From the NCBI GenBank assembly GCA_027487685.1, contig JAIYDC010000073.1:1-39843 (forward strand): DNA of 39,843 nucleotides, given 5' to 3'. Both the position numbers and the translations under genes were made by a program. The notes beneath the pieces were generated by a model. The model was not told the DNA's origin. It ran no database searches and saw nothing but the letters and a program-made list of their open reading frames with translations. Positions 15,823-23,377 of this stretch are shown here, in pieces (the stretch's first letter is position 1; every line of letters starts with the position of its first letter). Source of the DNA: Pseudomonadota bacterium (GTDB lineage Bacteria > Bdellovibrionota > Bacteriovoracia > Bacteriovoracales > Bacteriovoracaceae).

Positions 15823-15847
15823 AGACCCTCCTCAAATGTGTCCGGAA

Positions 15848-15876
15848 GTTATACCTTGGTTCATGGGGAGGGTAAA
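15848..15876 (-). promoter_or_regulatory. Putative sigma-70 promoter of the acyl-CoA carboxylase operon
   Basis: On the minus strand TTTACC (15871-15876) and TATAAC (15848-15853) are separated by 17 bases. They match four and five of six consensus positions. They lie 26 bases ahead of the carboxyltransferase start and just beyond the terminator of the preceding operon. Confidence 0.5.
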
Positions 15877-15901
15877 GAATTGACACTACAAGACAACAAA
15901 A

Positions 15902-15928
15902 GACTCCCCGAAAAAGATCCAGGGAGTC
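15902..15928 (-). terminator. Terminator of the TIGR02147/secreted-protein operon
   Basis: On the minus strand GACTCCC and GGGAGTC form a 7-bp stem with a 13-base loop, followed by TTTTGTTG. It lies 23 bases past the stop of the last secreted-protein gene and separates that operon from the carboxylase promoter. Confidence 0.65.
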
Positions 15929-15951
15929 AAAAGAAGAAAACTAGTTTTTGC

Positions 15952-16764
15952 TTATCGGCAGCTGATTCCACCTTCGATACGGTAGCTGATTTCATCAAAG
16001 CTGCCGTAGACCTCGTACAACTTCTGACGCTTTGCCGATTCACTCATCCCGGCCTGGTTAAATGCCGTGAGATCTTGCCAGATATCCTTGAGCTCAAGGA
16101 TTTCACAAGCGTAGGCAGAACCGTAAACGAGTTCAGAAAGCTCCTTGTAGCCTGCGCTAGCAATTACCTCAGAAGCTGTCAGATACGCCGCCGATGGTCC
16201 AAGAGGGAAAATCTGCCCGCCACGACGGATAACAAGTGAGCTGTTCGCAAGCACCAGCATATCGCCAACCATCTCGAGGACATTTCGCTCAAACTCGAGA
16301 GTCCGGGAGTAACGGCACCCTGTTCGTCGAGACTGACAACTGTAGTATCGGTAGTCGATGCGCTCGGCGGAGGAGAAGATCAGATCATAAAAACTCTCTA
16401 GAGCAATCGCCGTCGCCTTAAGACCCCTTATGTCACGACCCACTTCTTGATTGAGAACAGATCCGAGGCCATAAGCGTGGCCGATCAAACGTAGTATAAC
16501 AGGATTGACGTCCCCATACCGCTGGCCAACGTAAGGCCGCAGGCCCCCAATAAGAAGATCAACAGCTTCCCGAAAATTACCGTTTTGGCTTGCAAACGAA
16601 GCGTTTTGGCGCGCCCTTTCGAGACCCCGAAGTGTTCGGTCACAGTAAGCACGGAATTCGGCGTCTACGTCACTCTCCGGTTCCGGAAATTCTCCACTCC
16701 CCGACGCCGGAGCGTTGGTCAAAAAAGAGAGGCCAAGTAAAAATGCAAAGGTCCAGTTTCTCAT
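15952..16764 (-). CDS. Secreted cysteine-containing protein of unknown family (paralogue A)
   Basis: I do not recognise the family. The 270-residue product begins with a signal peptide (hydrophobic 5-17, cleavage probably near SGSGEF) and is otherwise helical. Cysteines occur in AYCDR, YYSCQSRRTGC, SAYACE and at the very end, ISCR. It shares an order of features with the gene just upstream (an early C-D pair, a Y-[S/T]-RRTG segment, a [YF]-[GA]-S-A-x-x-C segment and a C-terminal Cys). The two are therefore diverged paralogues. It is the last gene of an operon headed by a TIGR02147 regulator, 23 bases after its paralogue, and is followed by a terminator. The likely location is periplasm or outside the cell. 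Confidence 0.75.
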   Translation of the reverse strand: MRNWTFAFLLGLSFLTNAPASGSGEFPEPESDVDAEFRAYCDRTLRGLERARQNASFASQNGNFREAVDLLIGGLRPYVGQRYGDVNPVILRLIGHAYGLGSVLNQEVGRDIRGLKATAIALESFYDLIFSSAERIDYRYYSCQSRRTGCRYSRTLEFERNVLEMVGDMLVLANSSLVIRRGGQIFPLGPSAAYLTASEVIASAGYKELSELVYGSAYACEILELKDIWQDLTAFNQAGMSESAKRQKLYEVYGSFDEISYRIEGGISCR

Positions 16765-16787
16765 ACAATTTATCCCCTAAGTTTCGT

Positions 16788-17627
16788 TTAATAACGGCAC
16801 GTCCGTGTGGCCGTAAGTTCGATAATATGTTGAAGCTCTAATACAAAGCGGTTGATACGAATCGCGTCGTCCTTGGGCCCTGAACGACCGTCGAGATATG
16901 TCTGCACCTGCCGCGACAAGCGAAGAAGGAGTTTTGACTGACACTCGAGTGCACTGGCGAAGACTGTTTCATTGAGGTCTGCTGCGGTTTCTTTTGAGAG
17001 GTACGTAAGCGCCTGAAGAAACTGCGGAGCAGGAACAGTCGTATAAAAAGAGCTCCTGTCAGTTTTGAGTCGAACGAAGTTCGATTTCAGTCCTTCAATT
17101 TGAGAAAGCGCAACCAACACAAGCTGTTCCTCAAGTTCACGAGTTCCGGTTCTTCTTGTTGAGTACGGGATATAATGCTGCCGATCTACGGCACTCGCCA
17201 CCAAGGCGATATGGTTGGTGTACCAGTCAAGGAAGCTTAAGTACCCTTGGATCTGCAAAGTGGCGCCGAGACCTGGTTGAATCCCTCGACCACCAAAGAC
17301 TGCTGGGATGCCCAAGAGCTGGGAGAGCTTTATCCCGCGGGTAATCGCCCGTAGTGTGAGCGAGTTCTCCGGTGTTGCTTCGGTATCCTGGCTTGACGCT
17401 GCTGCGGCGACGAGACCTTCGTAGAAGACTCGGAGCGCCCCGATCCGATCACCCTCGATATTCAATCGGTCGAGGGCCTCAGTCCGAATTTCACGAACCA
17501 TGATCGCCGCATCGTCGCACCAGCTAATGAGAGCGAAATTCACACCGCCCCCGATTCCGCTCCCACCTGCTGCAAATACCGCTAGGGATGTTACGAACAT
17601 AACTCCCGCTATACATTTCTTGATCAT
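16788..17627 (-). CDS. Secreted cysteine-containing protein of unknown family (paralogue B)
   Basis: The 279-residue product has a signal peptide (hydrophobic 7-19, probable cleavage after VFAAG) followed by a short glycine-rich stretch. The rest is helical. The segment YIPYSTRRTGTRELEE matches YYSCQSRRTGCRY of paralogue A, and ETVFASALECQ matches ELVYGSAYACE. Both proteins end with a Cys within four residues of the C-terminus. I recognise no known domain. It lies 15 bases after the TIGR02147 gene and 23 bases before paralogue A, so one transcript is likely. Confidence 0.75.
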   Translation of the reverse strand: MIKKCIAGVMFVTSLAVFAAGGSGIGGGVNFALISWCDDAAIMVREIRTEALDRLNIEGDRIGALRVFYEGLVAAAASSQDTEATPENSLTLRAITRGIKLSQLLGIPAVFGGRGIQPGLGATLQIQGYLSFLDWYTNHIALVASAVDRQHYIPYSTRRTGTRELEEQLVLVALSQIEGLKSNFVRLKTDRSSFYTTVPAPQFLQALTYLSKETAADLNETVFASALECQSKLLLRLSRQVQTYLDGRSGPKDDAIRINRFVLELQHIIELTATRTCRY

Positions 17628-17642
17628 ATCTACTCCTTGTAA

Positions 17643-18545
17643 TTATTCTGTAATTTGTATGAGCTGAGCACCGAGCTGAACTACGATGTCACTGCTACTA
17701 TCAGTTGCGGACCCATATTGTTCTAAAATCTTTTTTGTAAACGCCTTCATCTCTGACCTGAGCTGCTCGAAGCCAGCACGTGGGATACTTAAAGTGATGA
17801 GCTGGGCCGCGCGCTGGTCGTAAGGCTTGTTTGTCATAGCATCAGCAGCAGAAAGTGCGAACTGATGATGAAGATTGGACGAATTCTGGAAATTCACGGT
17901 CGTGTCCTCAAAAAGAACAACCGGCTCGGACTGTACGAGTCTGCCCGCATCATTCCTGGTGATAAGACCCAGTCCCTGTAGATCTGCTAGTCCTTCGATG
18001 ACCTTATCCTTGGAGAGCTTTCGCCCGAGCTTCTGGATGATCCATTCTGGATCCTCGCGGAAATCTCGTAACTCAATCAGTTCGCGAAGGACGACGAGAT
18101 GCCATTCATTGAGGTAGCGGTATTGGTGCTCGAGGACTTTTACAAGCTTGGCCTTCTTACCTCTGGCCCCGACCTTCATCCGCTCAAAGAAGCAGATCTT
18201 TTCTTTCTCCGAATTGGCCTGATTGAACAGGACCATGTTTTCAAAATAAATGGATTCCTCACCGGAGAGCTCCATGGCAGTCGAAAATCCAAGAATGGAC
18301 TTTGAAGTAAGATTGCGCTTGTTTTTAATCACTAAGCCCAAGTATCCGCGAGAATTCTTCCCGAAACCGGCGGCGTAAATGAAGGCGTTCTCCGAAAACC
18401 CTGGGCTTCGGTTCTTCTTAAAGAGGTACATATCCCGGAGGAAGGGGCGGTAGTTCAAGTAATTGAAAACTGCAGGTCGCTCCGTAACGATTCTCTCTTC
18501 AATATTTTCTTCGACCCCATTGGGGGCCACTTCTGTTACTTGCAT
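17643..18545 (-). CDS. TIGR02147-family protein, probable transcription regulator
   Basis: The 300-residue protein has the features I associate with TIGR02147/DUF4423. After a 30-residue lead comes NYRPFLRDMYLFKKNRSPGFSE, then FGKNSRGYLGLVIKNKRNLT, a helical middle part and a winged-helix-like segment (WIIQKLGRKLSKDKVIEGLADLQGLGLI). This family is abundant in Bdellovibrio relatives and often sits beside secreted proteins of unknown function. A regulatory role is inferred from the helix-turn-helix-like regions, and no target is known. AAGGA precedes the ATG. It heads the operon with paralogues B and A and is divergent from a secreted peptidase across a 125-base region holding a 9-bp inverted repeat. 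Confidence 0.82.
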   Translation of the reverse strand: MQVTEVAPNGVEENIEERIVTERPAVFNYLNYRPFLRDMYLFKKNRSPGFSENAFIYAAGFGKNSRGYLGLVIKNKRNLTSKSILGFSTAMELSGEESIYFENMVLFNQANSEKEKICFFERMKVGARGKKAKLVKVLEHQYRYLNEWHLVVLRELIELRDFREDPEWIIQKLGRKLSKDKVIEGLADLQGLGLITRNDAGRLVQSEPVVLFEDTTVNFQNSSNLHHQFALSAADAMTNKPYDQRAAQLITLSIPRAGFEQLRSEMKAFTKKILEQYGSATDSSSDIVVQLGAQLIQITE

Positions 18546-18567
18546 TGGGTTTCCTTATTGCCGGACA

Positions 18568-18573
18568 TCTATA
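18568..18573 (-). promoter_or_regulatory. Putative -10 element of the TIGR02147 gene
   Basis: On the minus strand TATAGA at 18568-18573 lies 22 bases ahead of the start codon. The best -35 candidate 16 bases upstream is TTAATT, a weak match. One arm of the inverted repeat (18579-18587) falls in the spacer, which would suit an operator. Confidence 0.35.
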
Positions 18574-18578
18574 GCCCG

Positions 18579-18646
18579 ACTGCTGACAGAATTAACAGAC
18601 AATGTAAAAGATACCCAGTTGAAAGTGACGACCACCAGTCAGCAGT
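18579..18646. promoter_or_regulatory. Divergent control region with 9-bp inverted repeat
   Basis: ACTGCTGAC at 18579-18587 and GTCAGCAGT at 18638-18646 are perfect reverse complements separated by 50 bases. One arm is 5 bases upstream of the -10 of the TIGR02147 gene and the other 9 bases upstream of the -10 of the peptidase gene. The same core recurs as a palindrome at 19738-19756. This arrangement fits a shared operator, possibly bound by the TIGR02147 protein. The assignment is inference. Confidence 0.5.
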
Positions 18647-18655
18647 AAACCGACC

Positions 18656-18661
18656 TATAAT
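18656..18661 (+). promoter_or_regulatory. Putative -10 element of the secreted peptidase gene
   Basis: A perfect TATAAT lies nine bases ahead of the ATG at 18671, with no recognisable -35 box. If used, transcription would begin only about three bases ahead of the start codon, giving a nearly leaderless mRNA. No ribosome-binding sequence precedes this ATG. Confidence 0.4.
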
Positions 18662-18670
18662 CTGCGGCCT

Positions 18671-19747
18671 ATGCATTGGACCTACATGCTTCTTTTATTA
18701 CTCGCCTTTGACGCCCTGGCAGCCGGGGACTCGACAGGCGTTACCCGTTGGAATCGGCTTGGAATTAGCTTCGAGGCACGCACCGAGGTCTTCCGATCCT
18801 CACAGTCGCAACTCCTCTCGGCCAGCACCGAGATCGCCTATGCGATCACTAACCTACAAGAAGAACACCTGAATGCAGTTCACGACACCTTTCTTAAAGA
18901 CCATGCACTAGTTATTCTTTTTGAGAAGAACAGTGGCACAGACGCCATGTTTTTTCCCCCGAAAACCCTTCGACCAGACAGTGAAGAATGGATTATCTCA
19001 CTCTCCCCGGGTCTCCTCTCATCTCCCACCTACCTACGGATTGTGGCACATGAGTACTTTCACGCCGTTCACTTCGCCCTTAACCCCGGAGAGCTAGATT
19101 GGATCCGCGAGGGCTTGGCCCAACTCTTCGAGCACATTGTTTTCGGAGGCTTCAATGCGGCCCATGTCCATGCTTCACTCACCAATAGTGATTACGGACT
19201 TGAGGAAACCTTTGATCCCAATAGCTACAGTCCAGAGAAGTACGGAAATACGCTGCTCTACTTTTACTATATAAACACCCAGTGCTCTTTAAATAACGCC
19301 CTCTTCTGGAACCAAATCCGCGCAAGTTCACCTGGTCGATCTGGAATCTCCAACACACTCTCTAAGCTAGCTTCTCCATTGGCGCACTGCCGTAACTTTG
19401 AGACAAGTGCTGCGGCATTCTCAGTCGCCAGGCTTGTCAATGCCTTCAGTGGCTTCGAGCAGTCTTCAGCAACTTCAATCCTTAACACAGATAAGCGTCT
19501 TTCCATCGATCCCACATTTGAGCGCAGACTTATCGCTAACCCCCTTGAGTACTGGCGTAGACTCAAGCACTGGCGGCCGATCCGAATCACCTCGCCAACT
19601 GCGCTCATCATCGCTCCCTCTTCACCAATCGACATTAGATGGCTTGGTCTCGAGCGGGCCTACCCCTACCGAGTCCGTGAGCTCGGATCCAGGGACCTCA
19701 GAGGGCTAGGACCCAAGTGGGACGTTGGCCTTTTTCGTGCTGACTGA
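18671..19747 (+). CDS. Secreted HExxH metallopeptidase-like protein
   Basis: The 358-residue product has a signal peptide (hydrophobic 5-17, probable cleavage after DALA). It also has a zinc motif HEYFH (His127, Glu128, His131) followed by WIREGLAQLFEH, where Glu147 would be the third ligand, as in gluzincin-type peptidases. The spacing of 15 residues between the motif and that Glu is on the short side. No family beyond the peptidase MA clan is recognised. It is expected to be periplasmic or exported. It is divergent from the TIGR02147 gene and runs in the same direction as three more secreted-protein genes. A downstream ATG at 18686 is an alternative start that would shorten the signal peptide by five residues. 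Confidence 0.75.
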   Translation: MHWTYMLLLLLAFDALAAGDSTGVTRWNRLGISFEARTEVFRSSQSQLLSASTEIAYAITNLQEEHLNAVHDTFLKDHALVILFEKNSGTDAMFFPPKTLRPDSEEWIISLSPGLLSSPTYLRIVAHEYFHAVHFALNPGELDWIREGLAQLFEHIVFGGFNAAHVHASLTNSDYGLEETFDPNSYSPEKYGNTLLYFYYINTQCSLNNALFWNQIRASSPGRSGISNTLSKLASPLAHCRNFETSAAAFSVARLVNAFSGFEQSSATSILNTDKRLSIDPTFERRLIANPLEYWRRLKHWRPIRITSPTALIIAPSSPIDIRWLGLERAYPYRVRELGSRDLRGLGPKWDVGLFRAD

Positions 19748-19756
19748 AAGTCAGCA
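19738..19756. promoter_or_regulatory. Palindrome with the same core as the divergent operator
   Basis: TGCTGACTGAAAGTCAGCA is a perfect 8-bp inverted repeat with a 3-base centre and overlaps the peptidase stop codon. Its TGCTGAC/GTCAGCA core is that of the repeat at 18579-18646. AGTCAGC recurs at 19794-19800. It is not followed by a T tract, so an operator for the next gene is more likely than a terminator. Confidence 0.45.
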
Positions 19757-19847
19757 GAATCAACATTGAATTTTTTACACTTCAACTCAACCCAGTCAGC
19801 GGCTGTGTTAGGTTCACTCCACATTTGCTCTAAAGGGAGATTACGAT

Positions 19848-20546
19848 ATGAAATCACTAGTCATCATGTTCGCCATACTTTGCGCGGGCCAAACCCAAGC
19901 CTCAATCGAGGTCGGAACCTACGAAGGCATCGATAATAACCGGGGCGCCTTCGAGCTCCATGTTAGAGACATACCGGAGCGTCGAGGAAGTTTTATCGGT
20001 CTTCTTGTAAACGCCAGAGAAACCAAGGTCCGTGCTTATCTTATAGATGGCTTCTCTGCCAGTAGATACGGCTTCCTTTCCATGCGCTTAACCGGCAACT
20101 ACAACCTAGGTGTGAGCAGCACAGTCCCGGCCCTGGGTCTCACCGTTAGCGGAGACTCGATGGTTCTCACCCCCAACGACGATCGAAACGATATGGGTTT
20201 CGCTTCATCTATCACTTTTAAGAAGGCAAGCCGTCAGACCGTGAAATGGGTCCCTCTCATCGCTGGGAACTATAGCGGACGTGATCTCGTAGTCTCGGCT
20301 CTCGATGCCGAGTCAGAGTCCACAGTCTCAAGCAAGGTCACTGGTTTGACTGGAGATTATGTCCTCCGCGAAACCCGGAACGACATGTATGTATTACTGA
20401 ATTCTGAACTTACTCCAACGGGAGTCAAGCTAAGTAAAGATGCTACCCGCTTTGTGCTCTTCCTCGCAGGAACGCGCTGGAACCCAGCGCGCATGCTTGT
20501 CGTAGATAGTGCCACCGGGACAACCCTTGGTATAAAGAACCGTTAA
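19848..20546 (+). CDS. Secreted beta-rich protein of unknown family with two similar halves
   Basis: The 232-residue product has a signal peptide (1-18, cleavage probably after TQA) and then two regions of similar plan. The first begins VGTYEGIDNN near residue 22 and the second AGNYSGRDLV near residue 138. Each continues as alternating beta strands with a late Arg/Phe/Leu-rich strand. There is no cysteine in the mature part. The pattern suggests a duplicated beta-sandwich or barrel, but I recognise no family. AAGGGAGA precedes the ATG. It lies 100 bases after the peptidase gene, a gap that holds the TGCTGAC palindrome, and 17 bases before the next gene, so it probably starts or joins the transcript for the paralogue pair. 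Confidence 0.7.
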   Translation: MKSLVIMFAILCAGQTQASIEVGTYEGIDNNRGAFELHVRDIPERRGSFIGLLVNARETKVRAYLIDGFSASRYGFLSMRLTGNYNLGVSSTVPALGLTVSGDSMVLTPNDDRNDMGFASSITFKKASRQTVKWVPLIAGNYSGRDLVVSALDAESESTVSSKVTGLTGDYVLRETRNDMYVLLNSELTPTGVKLSKDATRFVLFLAGTRWNPARMLVVDSATGTTLGIKNR

Positions 20547-20563
20547 TTTAAGGAACTTAGCAT

Positions 20564-21922
20564 ATGAAATTTTTAAACTTCACAACTCTTTTAGTTTTGG
20601 CGACGTTGAGTGGACCCACATTCGCCCAACAGCGTCGACAGGCGCTTCCAGAGATTCCAGCACCTCGGGAGCTCAAAGAAGTCTCCTCAGACTTTGCAGA
20701 AGGAACAATCACACGCCTCTCTGATCAAGACGTCGCGCTTTTTCTTCCGTGGGCACAGAATGCCCAGTCCGTCCTCACGAAGGCCATTCGCGACGCTGAG
20801 ACGATGACGGTCCAGAATCAGGTTCGTCACCTCACAAACATCATGAAATCCGTTGTAAGGAATTCGGCACAAAAAAACTATCAATTGTTTATGCGCTTCG
20901 CCCTCAATAGGACTCTCCTACTTGTTCAAGAGCTCACGGCACAAAGCGATTGGAATGTACCTGGAACAGTAGAAAACGTACTAGACCTCCAGGTCCGAGG
21001 CATCAACCTCGCTCTTGAATTCTATGAGTCAGACCTTGCATACCAGCGCCGTGTGGCACGTGGCCAGAGCACAGTCGCTCTCGAGTACGCCCGCTTTGGC
21101 GCTGCGTTTGGAAAGGCGATGCTTTCCTCAATCCAAAACGTCACGGATGCCTCCGCTCAATACCGTCTCCTCTATAAAACACTTGAAATGATCAACTGGG
21201 ATTTCTCAAGAGATACCCAGGCAATCGACTTCGCTGACACGATAGTTGAGATTTTCAACACGCTAAACACTCTCGAAGAGCAACCGGGGAACGATGACTA
21301 CCAGAGCGTTCTTGCGATCCGCCGGCTGACTGTTCTTTTGGGACCTGTCCGCACAGTCGAACGGATCATTCTTATGAGCAACGAGGAGTCGCGACGCCAA
21401 ATCGAGGAACAGGAGCGCAACGACCGTATGCGCAGTGCCCTCACGAACGGTATAGGTGTGATCGTCGAAAATACTTTTTTCATCATCAATGGCGCATCTC
21501 AGGCGGAGCTCTACTCAAGATGTATTGCTCAGGTTCCTGGAGGTTCGATAGACGAAATCGCCTTCGCAACGGGTGGAAAGTCCTTAAGAGTAATGACTAA
21601 TTCCTCATATTACTGGAACAAAGAACAGGTCTGCCAAAATGTTCTGACTGCCCAGACCTTTCAGGCCCATGACCGTCCACTTACTGTCTACGGATCTGTC
21701 GAGGAGAGAAGCTTCACATTCTCAGGAACTTCAATAACTGCACTCATGTACCAGTGCAGCCAGTTCTACACTACACGAGTCCAGGGACTTTCGATCGACC
21801 AGATGACTATAGGTGTTTACAACAACCCGCCAGTGCCGCACACGAACTCGTCCTACTACTGGAACTCAATGACTGCCACCTGTGGAACAATCTTCACTCG
21901 CGCGCTTTCACAGGGATTGTAA
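20564..21922 (+). CDS. Secreted helical protein with C-terminal cysteine repeats (tandem paralogue 1)
   Basis: The 452-residue product has a signal peptide ending near TFAQ. Residues about 30-260 form a helical domain shared closely with the next gene (for example AEGTITRLS, FMRFALNRTLLLVQEL, SDLAYQRR, ASAQYRLLYKTLE). The last 150 residues differ from that gene and contain two repeats. Each has one Cys near a Tyr (LYSRC, LMYQC), then the identical TNSSYYWN, then a second Cys (QVCQN, ATCGT), suggesting a disulfide per repeat. No family is recognised. AAGGA precedes the ATG, and the next gene starts one base after its stop codon. Confidence 0.78.
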   Translation: MKFLNFTTLLVLATLSGPTFAQQRRQALPEIPAPRELKEVSSDFAEGTITRLSDQDVALFLPWAQNAQSVLTKAIRDAETMTVQNQVRHLTNIMKSVVRNSAQKNYQLFMRFALNRTLLLVQELTAQSDWNVPGTVENVLDLQVRGINLALEFYESDLAYQRRVARGQSTVALEYARFGAAFGKAMLSSIQNVTDASAQYRLLYKTLEMINWDFSRDTQAIDFADTIVEIFNTLNTLEEQPGNDDYQSVLAIRRLTVLLGPVRTVERIILMSNEESRRQIEEQERNDRMRSALTNGIGVIVENTFFIINGASQAELYSRCIAQVPGGSIDEIAFATGGKSLRVMTNSSYYWNKEQVCQNVLTAQTFQAHDRPLTVYGSVEERSFTFSGTSITALMYQCSQFYTTRVQGLSIDQMTIGVYNNPPVPHTNSSYYWNSMTATCGTIFTRALSQGL

Positions 21923-21923
21923 G

Positions 21924-23318
21924 ATGAAAGCAAAGGCTTTAACTCTAAGTTTACTCTTCTTTGCCTCGGCCACGGCCATTGCAAAAGACCTTCCCAATGT
22001 TCCAGCCCCTAGGGAGTTGACTGAGGTTGGTAGCGAGTTCGCAGAAGGCACAATAACCCGACTCTCTGTAGAGGACATTAGCATCTTTATACCATTTGCG
22101 CAGAATGCGAAGTCAGTTCTGACCAAGGCACTTGCCGATTCAGAAACAATGCCAGTGCAGCAACAGGTCCGGCATCTTTCTAATAGCATGCGAGCCGTAG
22201 TCCGTAACTCAGGTAAGAAGCAGTACCAGACCTTTATGAGGTTTGCACTTAACCGAACTCTCCTCCTGGTTCAGGAGCTTCTCAAAGAAGCAGATATTCG
22301 AACCCCAGGGACTCTCGAAAATGCTCTTGACCTTCAGGTGCGTGGGATTAATGTAGCACTCAAATTCTTTGAATCAGATCTAGCTTATCAGCGCCGCGAA
22401 CGAAGTGGGGGCGATACAGTTAACCTCAACTACGCTTCTTTTGGAGCGGTCTTCGCTGCCAGCTCACTTCGTTCCATACAAAACGTCTTAGACGCCTCGG
22501 CCCAATATCGGCTTCTCTACAAGACATTAGAAATCTTTAACTGGGATGTGACGAGAGACCGGCACGCTATAGAGGTCGCAGATACTATCGTTGATATCTT
22601 CAATACTCTCTCTGCGCTTCAGGAAGTACCCTCTTCCGACGACCAAGAAAATATTCTTAGCATTCGAAGGCTGACTCTGCTCATTGATCCAGTCTCCGAT
22701 GTCGAAAGAGTGATTACCGAAGCGATAAAGCGCGCAGAAGAAGCAGTCCTCCGGCAGCAACAAGAAGCTCAACGTCAGGCAGATCGTGAGCGGCGTAGGC
22801 AACAGTTCCGGTTCTTAGTTGGTCAAGCCGTCATCGATGTCACGAACCCCGAGGAACCGCGCAGGGCCACTGTTCACGAGCTCCGGGACGAAGTAGTCAT
22901 ACTTCGACTTCCTGGAAGTAAGTTTGAAGCGGTGTCGACTAATAATCTCGCTCGCACATCAGGTTGCCTCCTTAATTACTGCGTCGGAAGTAGCTTCATC
23001 AATACTCAGCGAGATAATTACTATGTAAAGGTCGTCGCTATCGCTCAAGATGACACCTTAGTCATCGAATTCACTGAAGGTGAGGGCTACCGCGGTAGGC
23101 TTGGGGCCGGCTGGACCCCTGAGTCTTTTGCTCACACCAATGGATGTGCAGGAGATATCTGCGTGGGCGATCGGGTTTATGTCATGGAACGTGATTTTCG
23201 TGCTCGAGTCATCGGCATCCAGGACAACGGGGAGATGATCATTCAGGGCTTAGATGGTGATTTGAAGGATCTAAGGGGCGGGTTCTGGACCCGTGATCAG
23301 GTAACAAAAATAGAGTAG
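21924..23318 (+). CDS. Secreted helical protein with different C-terminal repeats (tandem paralogue 2)
   Basis: I place the start at the ATG at 21924, one base after the preceding stop, with AGGGA upstream and a clear signal peptide (MKAKALTLSLLFFASATAIA). An earlier in-frame start would spoil it. The 464-residue product shares the helical domain of paralogue 1 up to about residue 245. A Gln/Arg-rich coiled stretch (about 247-285) follows. The C-terminus has two beta-type repeats with GC-x4-CVG (SGCLLNYCVG and NGCAGDICVG), each preceded by a segment ending in an acidic or basic loop. This tail is unrelated to that of paralogue 1. A strong terminator follows the gene. Confidence 0.8.
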   Translation: MKAKALTLSLLFFASATAIAKDLPNVPAPRELTEVGSEFAEGTITRLSVEDISIFIPFAQNAKSVLTKALADSETMPVQQQVRHLSNSMRAVVRNSGKKQYQTFMRFALNRTLLLVQELLKEADIRTPGTLENALDLQVRGINVALKFFESDLAYQRRERSGGDTVNLNYASFGAVFAASSLRSIQNVLDASAQYRLLYKTLEIFNWDVTRDRHAIEVADTIVDIFNTLSALQEVPSSDDQENILSIRRLTLLIDPVSDVERVITEAIKRAEEAVLRQQQEAQRQADRERRRQQFRFLVGQAVIDVTNPEEPRRATVHELRDEVVILRLPGSKFEAVSTNNLARTSGCLLNYCVGSSFINTQRDNYYVKVVAIAQDDTLVIEFTEGEGYRGRLGAGWTPESFAHTNGCAGDICVGDRVYVMERDFRARVIGIQDNGEMIIQGLDGDLKDLRGGFWTRDQVTKIE

Positions 23319-23327
23319 TCAAAAAAA

Positions 23328-23350
23328 GGGCCCGGATCTAATCCGGGCCC
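23328..23350. terminator. Shared bidirectional terminator
   Basis: A perfect 10-bp GC-rich stem (GGGCCCGGAT with ATCCGGGCCC) has a CTA loop. On the minus strand it is followed by seven T residues, a classic intrinsic terminator for the sigma-54 activator. On the plus strand the tail is only CACTTTGTT, so it is weaker there for the secreted-protein operon. Confidence 0.88.
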
Positions 23351-23377
23351 CACTTTGTTCAAAAAATAAATATCGTA

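Follow-up and report, generated by a model that had tools for sequence, protein, structure and literature searches.

The seven genes A to G that lie within the 39,843 nt stretch of DNA analysed here (the window, which is a whole contig from a genome of 3.79 Mb) appear to form one co-regulated system of exported proteins, a conclusion well supported by a gene order that recurs across families of the Bdellovibrionota and by a cassette-specific operator candidate found at both promoter regions. A sequence-only reading of this DNA had proposed a single functional system with a common control region, and that proposal now has strong support. Seven anonymous genes are thereby defined as a recurrent system that has a clear modular logic, a predicted operator and a new protein superfamily, in a phylum that is known for bacterial predation. 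Our preferred reading, to which we would give an even chance, is that they make up a self-contained cassette, in which a set of exported proteins is controlled by a TIGR02147 regulator, is assembled in the envelope or at the surface and carries exchangeable C-terminal modules.

Gene content of the locus

All seven ORFs were found on the strands and at the coordinates first given for them (Table 1), and the five proteins described there as unrecognised, A, B, E, F and G, match nothing in Pfam or NCBIfam above the cut-off; it was also correct that six genes (A, B, D, E, F and G) begin with a signal-peptide-like N-terminus. By a crude home-made rule such an N-terminus is found in 35 of 38 homologues of A/B, 40 of 44 of F/G, 18 of 20 of E, 15 of 24 of D and none of 30 of C, and in the same scan, by a rule equally crude, lipobox-like matches are limited to two F/G homologues. 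The true start of G is probably the ATG at 21924 rather than the GTG at 21882. The two sets of paralogues described previously are real, F and G being alike over their N-domain and A and B being remote paralogues with 21% identity in a profile-profile alignment. Terminators had been placed at both ends of the unit; both stem-loops exist, with stems of 10-11 pairs, but the number of terminator-like matches in the region is not above that in shuffled sequence (8 versus 9.4), so it is position and stem length that argue for the flanking terminators.

Table 1. Features of the cassette, with positions in the window
Feature	Position	Strand	Evidence
Terminator-like stem-loop 3' of A	15902..15928	-	11-pair stem, then T-rich tail
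Gene A, exported helical protein, 270 aa, paralogue of B	15952..16764	-	profile match to B, E 9e-7
Gene B, exported helical protein, 279 aa	16788..17627	-	alignment of 28 homologues
Gene C, TIGR02147/DUF4423 regulator	17643..18545	-	TIGR02147 E 5e-52
Operator half-site TGCTGAC, C side of divergent promoter region (candidate)	18581..18587	+	invariant in 5 orthologues
Operator half-site CCAGTCAGCA, D side of C/D region (candidate)	18635..18644	+	invariant in 5 orthologues
Gene D, exported HExxH peptidase (HEYFH...W.REGLAQ), predicted	18671..19747	+	invariant zincin residues in 17 homologues
Palindromic operator candidate TGCTGACTGAAAGTCAGCA 5' of E, overlapping the D stop codon	19738..19756	+	in 5/6 aligned E promoters
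Gene E, exported all-beta protein, N-terminal lipocalin/calycin-like barrel and second beta region	19848..20546	+	AlphaFold2 model, pLDDT 88
Gene F, helical N-domain (residues about 35-295) and two beta-beta-alpha-beta-beta-alpha C-terminal repeats	20564..21922	+	model pLDDT 88
Gene G, helical N-domain as in F and different C-terminus (repeats of type CVGDxV...GW)	21924..23318	+	64% identity to F over N-domain
Bidirectional terminator-like stem-loop 3' of G	23327..23351	.	10-11-pair stem on both strands

Recurrence across the Bdellovibrionota

Two profile searches that were blind to gene neighbourhood were run against 369 genomes of the phylum, one with the N-domain of F, which has matches in 27 genomes, and one with A/B, which has matches in 33 and brought in new loci of the same layout from further families. 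Later HMMs were built from the recovered loci, and the blind evidence is that of the two genome searches and the first-generation HMMs. The layout recovered is D<- ->C-A/B(-E)-F(n), where E is usual and F-type genes number one to five; beside the A/B and F homologues lie C, D and in many cases E, in keeping with the co-conservation of neighbours that the sequence-only reading had put forward as a check. By our own count D is divergent from C at 21 loci in 20 genomes and 10 families (f1, f4, f6, f8, f9, f11, f12, f16, f20, f21), a regulator followed by an A/B gene is found in nearly all cassettes, and a metallopeptidase-like gene is a near-constant member. Since related versions are present in many distant relatives the cassette is a real system, albeit one undescribed; literature searches returned no paper that names TIGR02147 and none on the cassette. 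Some homologues of F (L089-L093 and L097-L099), with genus g32 prominent among them, lack a cassette in the flanks examined.

At four loci (L144-L146 and L153) the A/B-F set adjoins a large P-loop ATPase in place of the TIGR02147 gene, with weak TPR and in some cases Trans_reg_C matches, these Pfam matches being below the cut-off. The same four loci have, in place of D, a protein of 809-845 aa in which the motif HEMIH is invariant and which is not matched by the D profile. As these variants replace both genes together, it is suggested that a regulator and a peptidase function are both needed. A further locus, L108, is perhaps also an A/B-F unit with a P-loop ATPase regulator, there without the different HExxH protein.

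The regulator and a common operator candidate

C is a clear member of the TIGR02147/DUF4423 family (NCBIfam; Pfam PF14394), matching TIGR02147 over residues 25-298 with 177 bits against a curated cut-off of 50 and matching DUF4423 as well, but it is set apart within that family by belonging to a seven-gene cassette with an operator candidate of its own. In the C/D intergenic region the half-sites TGCTGAC and CCAGTCAGCA do not vary among five orthologues, whose alignment has a mean column identity of 54%. The palindrome TGCTGACTnnnAGTCAGCA stands 5' of E, and its half-sites flank the C/D promoters; in the form TGCTGACTnnnAGTCAGC it is found 5' of E and again 5' of the second E of genome G022. 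Five of the six aligned E promoters contain it, and in G015 it is degenerate and the strict pattern is absent. When ten whole genomes were searched with the pattern TGCTGACTNNNNGTCAGC, matches were found only 5' of cassette E genes (in G000, the genome of the window, and in G006, G022 and G023). The pattern has no match in five cassette-less genomes, nor has the reversed-pattern control, and by our own arithmetic 14 fixed bases would be matched by chance about 0.03 times per genome. A single 9-base half-site taken alone is not clearly enriched in the window. On these comparisons the two arms have a common operator candidate that is specific to the cassette. In G015 the gene directly 3' of G is a second TIGR02147 gene (58% to C; L037:17018-17854, minus strand).

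A helical superfamily with variable C-termini

Profiles of A/B and of the F/G N-domain align end to end with an E value of 4.5e-10, and on this comparison they all belong to a single helical superfamily, for which there is no counterpart in Pfam or NCBIfam. In an alignment of 28 homologues B has a glycine-rich start, GGSGIGGG, and the residues Cys37, Asp148 and Cys229 are invariant. The model of F consists of a confident helical domain followed by two alpha-beta repeats. Foldseek and VIA-align gave no clear structural relative of the helical domain, the best hit, the designed repeat protein BRIC2 (Z 13.2), being within the helical background, and sequence searches of solved structures with A/B found nothing convincing.

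Homologues of F retain the N-domain, whilst their C-termini fall into 26 similarity clusters of unrelated types among 52 proteins, with that of G in a cluster separate from that of F. Pfam scans found FGE-sulfatase, HEAT and LamG modules amongst these C-termini, together with a sub-threshold WD40-like match. Such an arrangement, in which a constant N-domain is joined to exchangeable C-termini in adjacent paralogues and a peptidase belongs to the set, recalls in outline the architecture of polymorphic toxin systems (PMC3482391), and the N-domain could serve for delivery, carrying interchangeable C-terminal effectors to competitors or prey. However, the cassette differs from those systems in that no toxin or immunity part was detected: Pfam scans of 20 cassette proteins, mostly F-type, found no toxin domain, a result that divergent toxins could escape, in the window neither F nor G is followed by a small gene of immunity type, and several of the C-termini resemble binding modules. 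We regard delivery of effectors as very unlikely. Within the cassettes one F-type gene is often followed by another.

Three loci of family f4 (L050, L083 and L085) have up to five F-type paralogues in tandem with differing C-termini, some with outer-membrane beta-barrel-like ends, and by visual impression some F-type C-termini end in aromatic residues in the manner of an outer-membrane barrel. Separate exported proteins about 260-290 aa long (L042-L048), mostly from genomes without the cassette, likewise contain the C-terminal repeat domain of F.

A predicted metallopeptidase and an all-beta protein

In D the residues H127, E128, H131, W144, E147, G148 and A150 are invariant in 17 homologues, and of these H127, E128, H131 and E147 make up the zincin signature, i.e. 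HExxH with a downstream conserved Glu. D is metallopeptidase-like and is predicted to be of zincin type, with zinc-dependent proteolysis as its activity. It has a distant match to the solved structure of the neutral metalloprotease 7bb8 (E 6e-6), and its HExxH region is common to the MXAN_6640 family of putative metalloproteases (NF045524, E 2e-9); membership of that family was considered and rejected, the score being 37.5 bits against a cut-off of 140.

The N-terminal half of E has the barrel topology of calycin/lipocalin-like proteins such as U-Omp19 and AimA, but there is no sequence match to these and the Z scores are within background. The best scores from Foldseek and VIA-align are Z 8-10 to calycin-like barrels, hits to generic barrels that are not decisive; against 7mhw the barrel gives Z 8.0 and an rmsd of 2.9 over 89 residues, and other barrels score alike. 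A sequence search of solved structures with E found nothing convincing, and E in family f4 was recovered by iterated profiles only.

The retention of all zincin residues by D, and the alignment of E to the protease inhibitor U-Omp19 at Z 8.0, would be consistent with a secreted digestive or prey-damaging set used in predation, with D as the protease, E as its cognate inhibitor and A, B, F and G as accessory or substrate-binding proteins. In Bdellovibrio bacteriovorus the exit phase brings a rise in one DUF4423 protein, Bd3700, and in several secreted proteases (PMC12546842), an observation that serves as no more than a lead. U-Omp19 is however one among other barrels at a Z of 8 that lies within the barrel background, E and D are not always adjacent, and a patchy spread within the genus (five of 26 members) misfits a core function in predation. 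We consider a digestive set unlikely.

TIGR02147 genes beside glycine-rich exported proteins

The context of the cassette hints at a role for the TIGR02147 family, in that its genes have exported proteins with glycine-rich starts as neighbours. Besides C, the TIGR02147 genes of this genome (L179-L183), and those sampled in G015 and G038 (L184-L203), mostly adjoin exported proteins. By a crude signal-peptide rule a glycine-rich mature start, e.g. GGNGGDVIVC, is found across the three genomes in 17 of 29 exported proteins adjacent to TIGR02147 genes and in 2 of 55 other exported proteins (Fisher p 2e-8). Such a GNGGDVVVC-like mature N-terminus is possibly a sorting or assembly signal. B, which adjoins C, has the same type of start, so that the cassette resembles an expansion of a common two-gene unit.

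The same adjacency, and the start of B, speak for a different reading, in which the cassette is a larger version of that unit, the exported proteins are envelope sensors or chaperones and C reports their state. C is cytoplasmic, though, and no signalling link from the periplasm to C is visible in the cassette, and an envelope-sensing unit is to our minds a rather improbable explanation.

A model for the cassette

In the preferred reading, that of a self-contained and surface-assembled cassette, C would bind the TGCTGAC/GTCAGCA sites and switch both arms together, and the cassette proteins would leave the cytoplasm via Sec. In the periplasm or at the surface the common helical domain would act as a docking module that brings A, B, F and G into one assembly with the beta protein E, shared homology being the one observation that suggests such assembly. 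D may trim or mature these proteins, and any outward-facing work, be it binding or enzymatic, could be done by the C-termini of F and G, which vary and would be tuned in each lineage. The cassette may have a role in predation or at the cell surface, as first suggested. The broader proposal is of a phylum-wide exported machine, with a new helical docking superfamily, lineage-specific C-terminal modules, a dedicated metallopeptidase and regulator-operator pair, and interchangeable types of regulator and peptidase; it is put forward tentatively, and we lean against it in so complete a form.

Distribution in the genus and genomic site

The description of these genes as lineage-specific holds for close versions, which are confined to five of the 26 genomes of the genus, and does not hold for remote versions, which are phylum-wide. 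A and B are found in the same five genomes, as is full-length F, and within the genus A is present only in these cassette genomes. With F as query, a scan of the collection gave three loci, which belong to two MAGs in the genus; the two relatives that bear orthologues are public MAGs, one from a pond and one labelled Bacteriovoracaceae. F has no match among plasmids and phages, so there is no sign of a plasmid or phage element.

G000, G006 and G015 agree in the order of the seven genes, which are flanked by an accD-like gene on one side and an NtrC-like gene on the other. In several cassette-less genomes (loci L159, L161, L163, L165 and L174) the two flanking genes are adjacent, separated by about 100 bp, which constitutes an empty site; they are likewise adjacent in G022, where the cassette is elsewhere. 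In G022 and G023 the unit is found elsewhere in the rearranged order [F/G-type]-E-D<- ->C-B-A, together with a second E-F pair, and the types of gene are kept. By a tree of the accD-like gene the patchy spread takes three changes, which may be losses or transfers, with weak support, and in it G017, which has no match, groups with the cassette genomes.

Other members of the genus have different genes between the accD-like and NtrC-like genes. This interval (15823-23377 in the window; cf. L157, L160, L164, L166 and L170) contains small gene sets that differ between species of the genus, and may therefore be prone to insertion.
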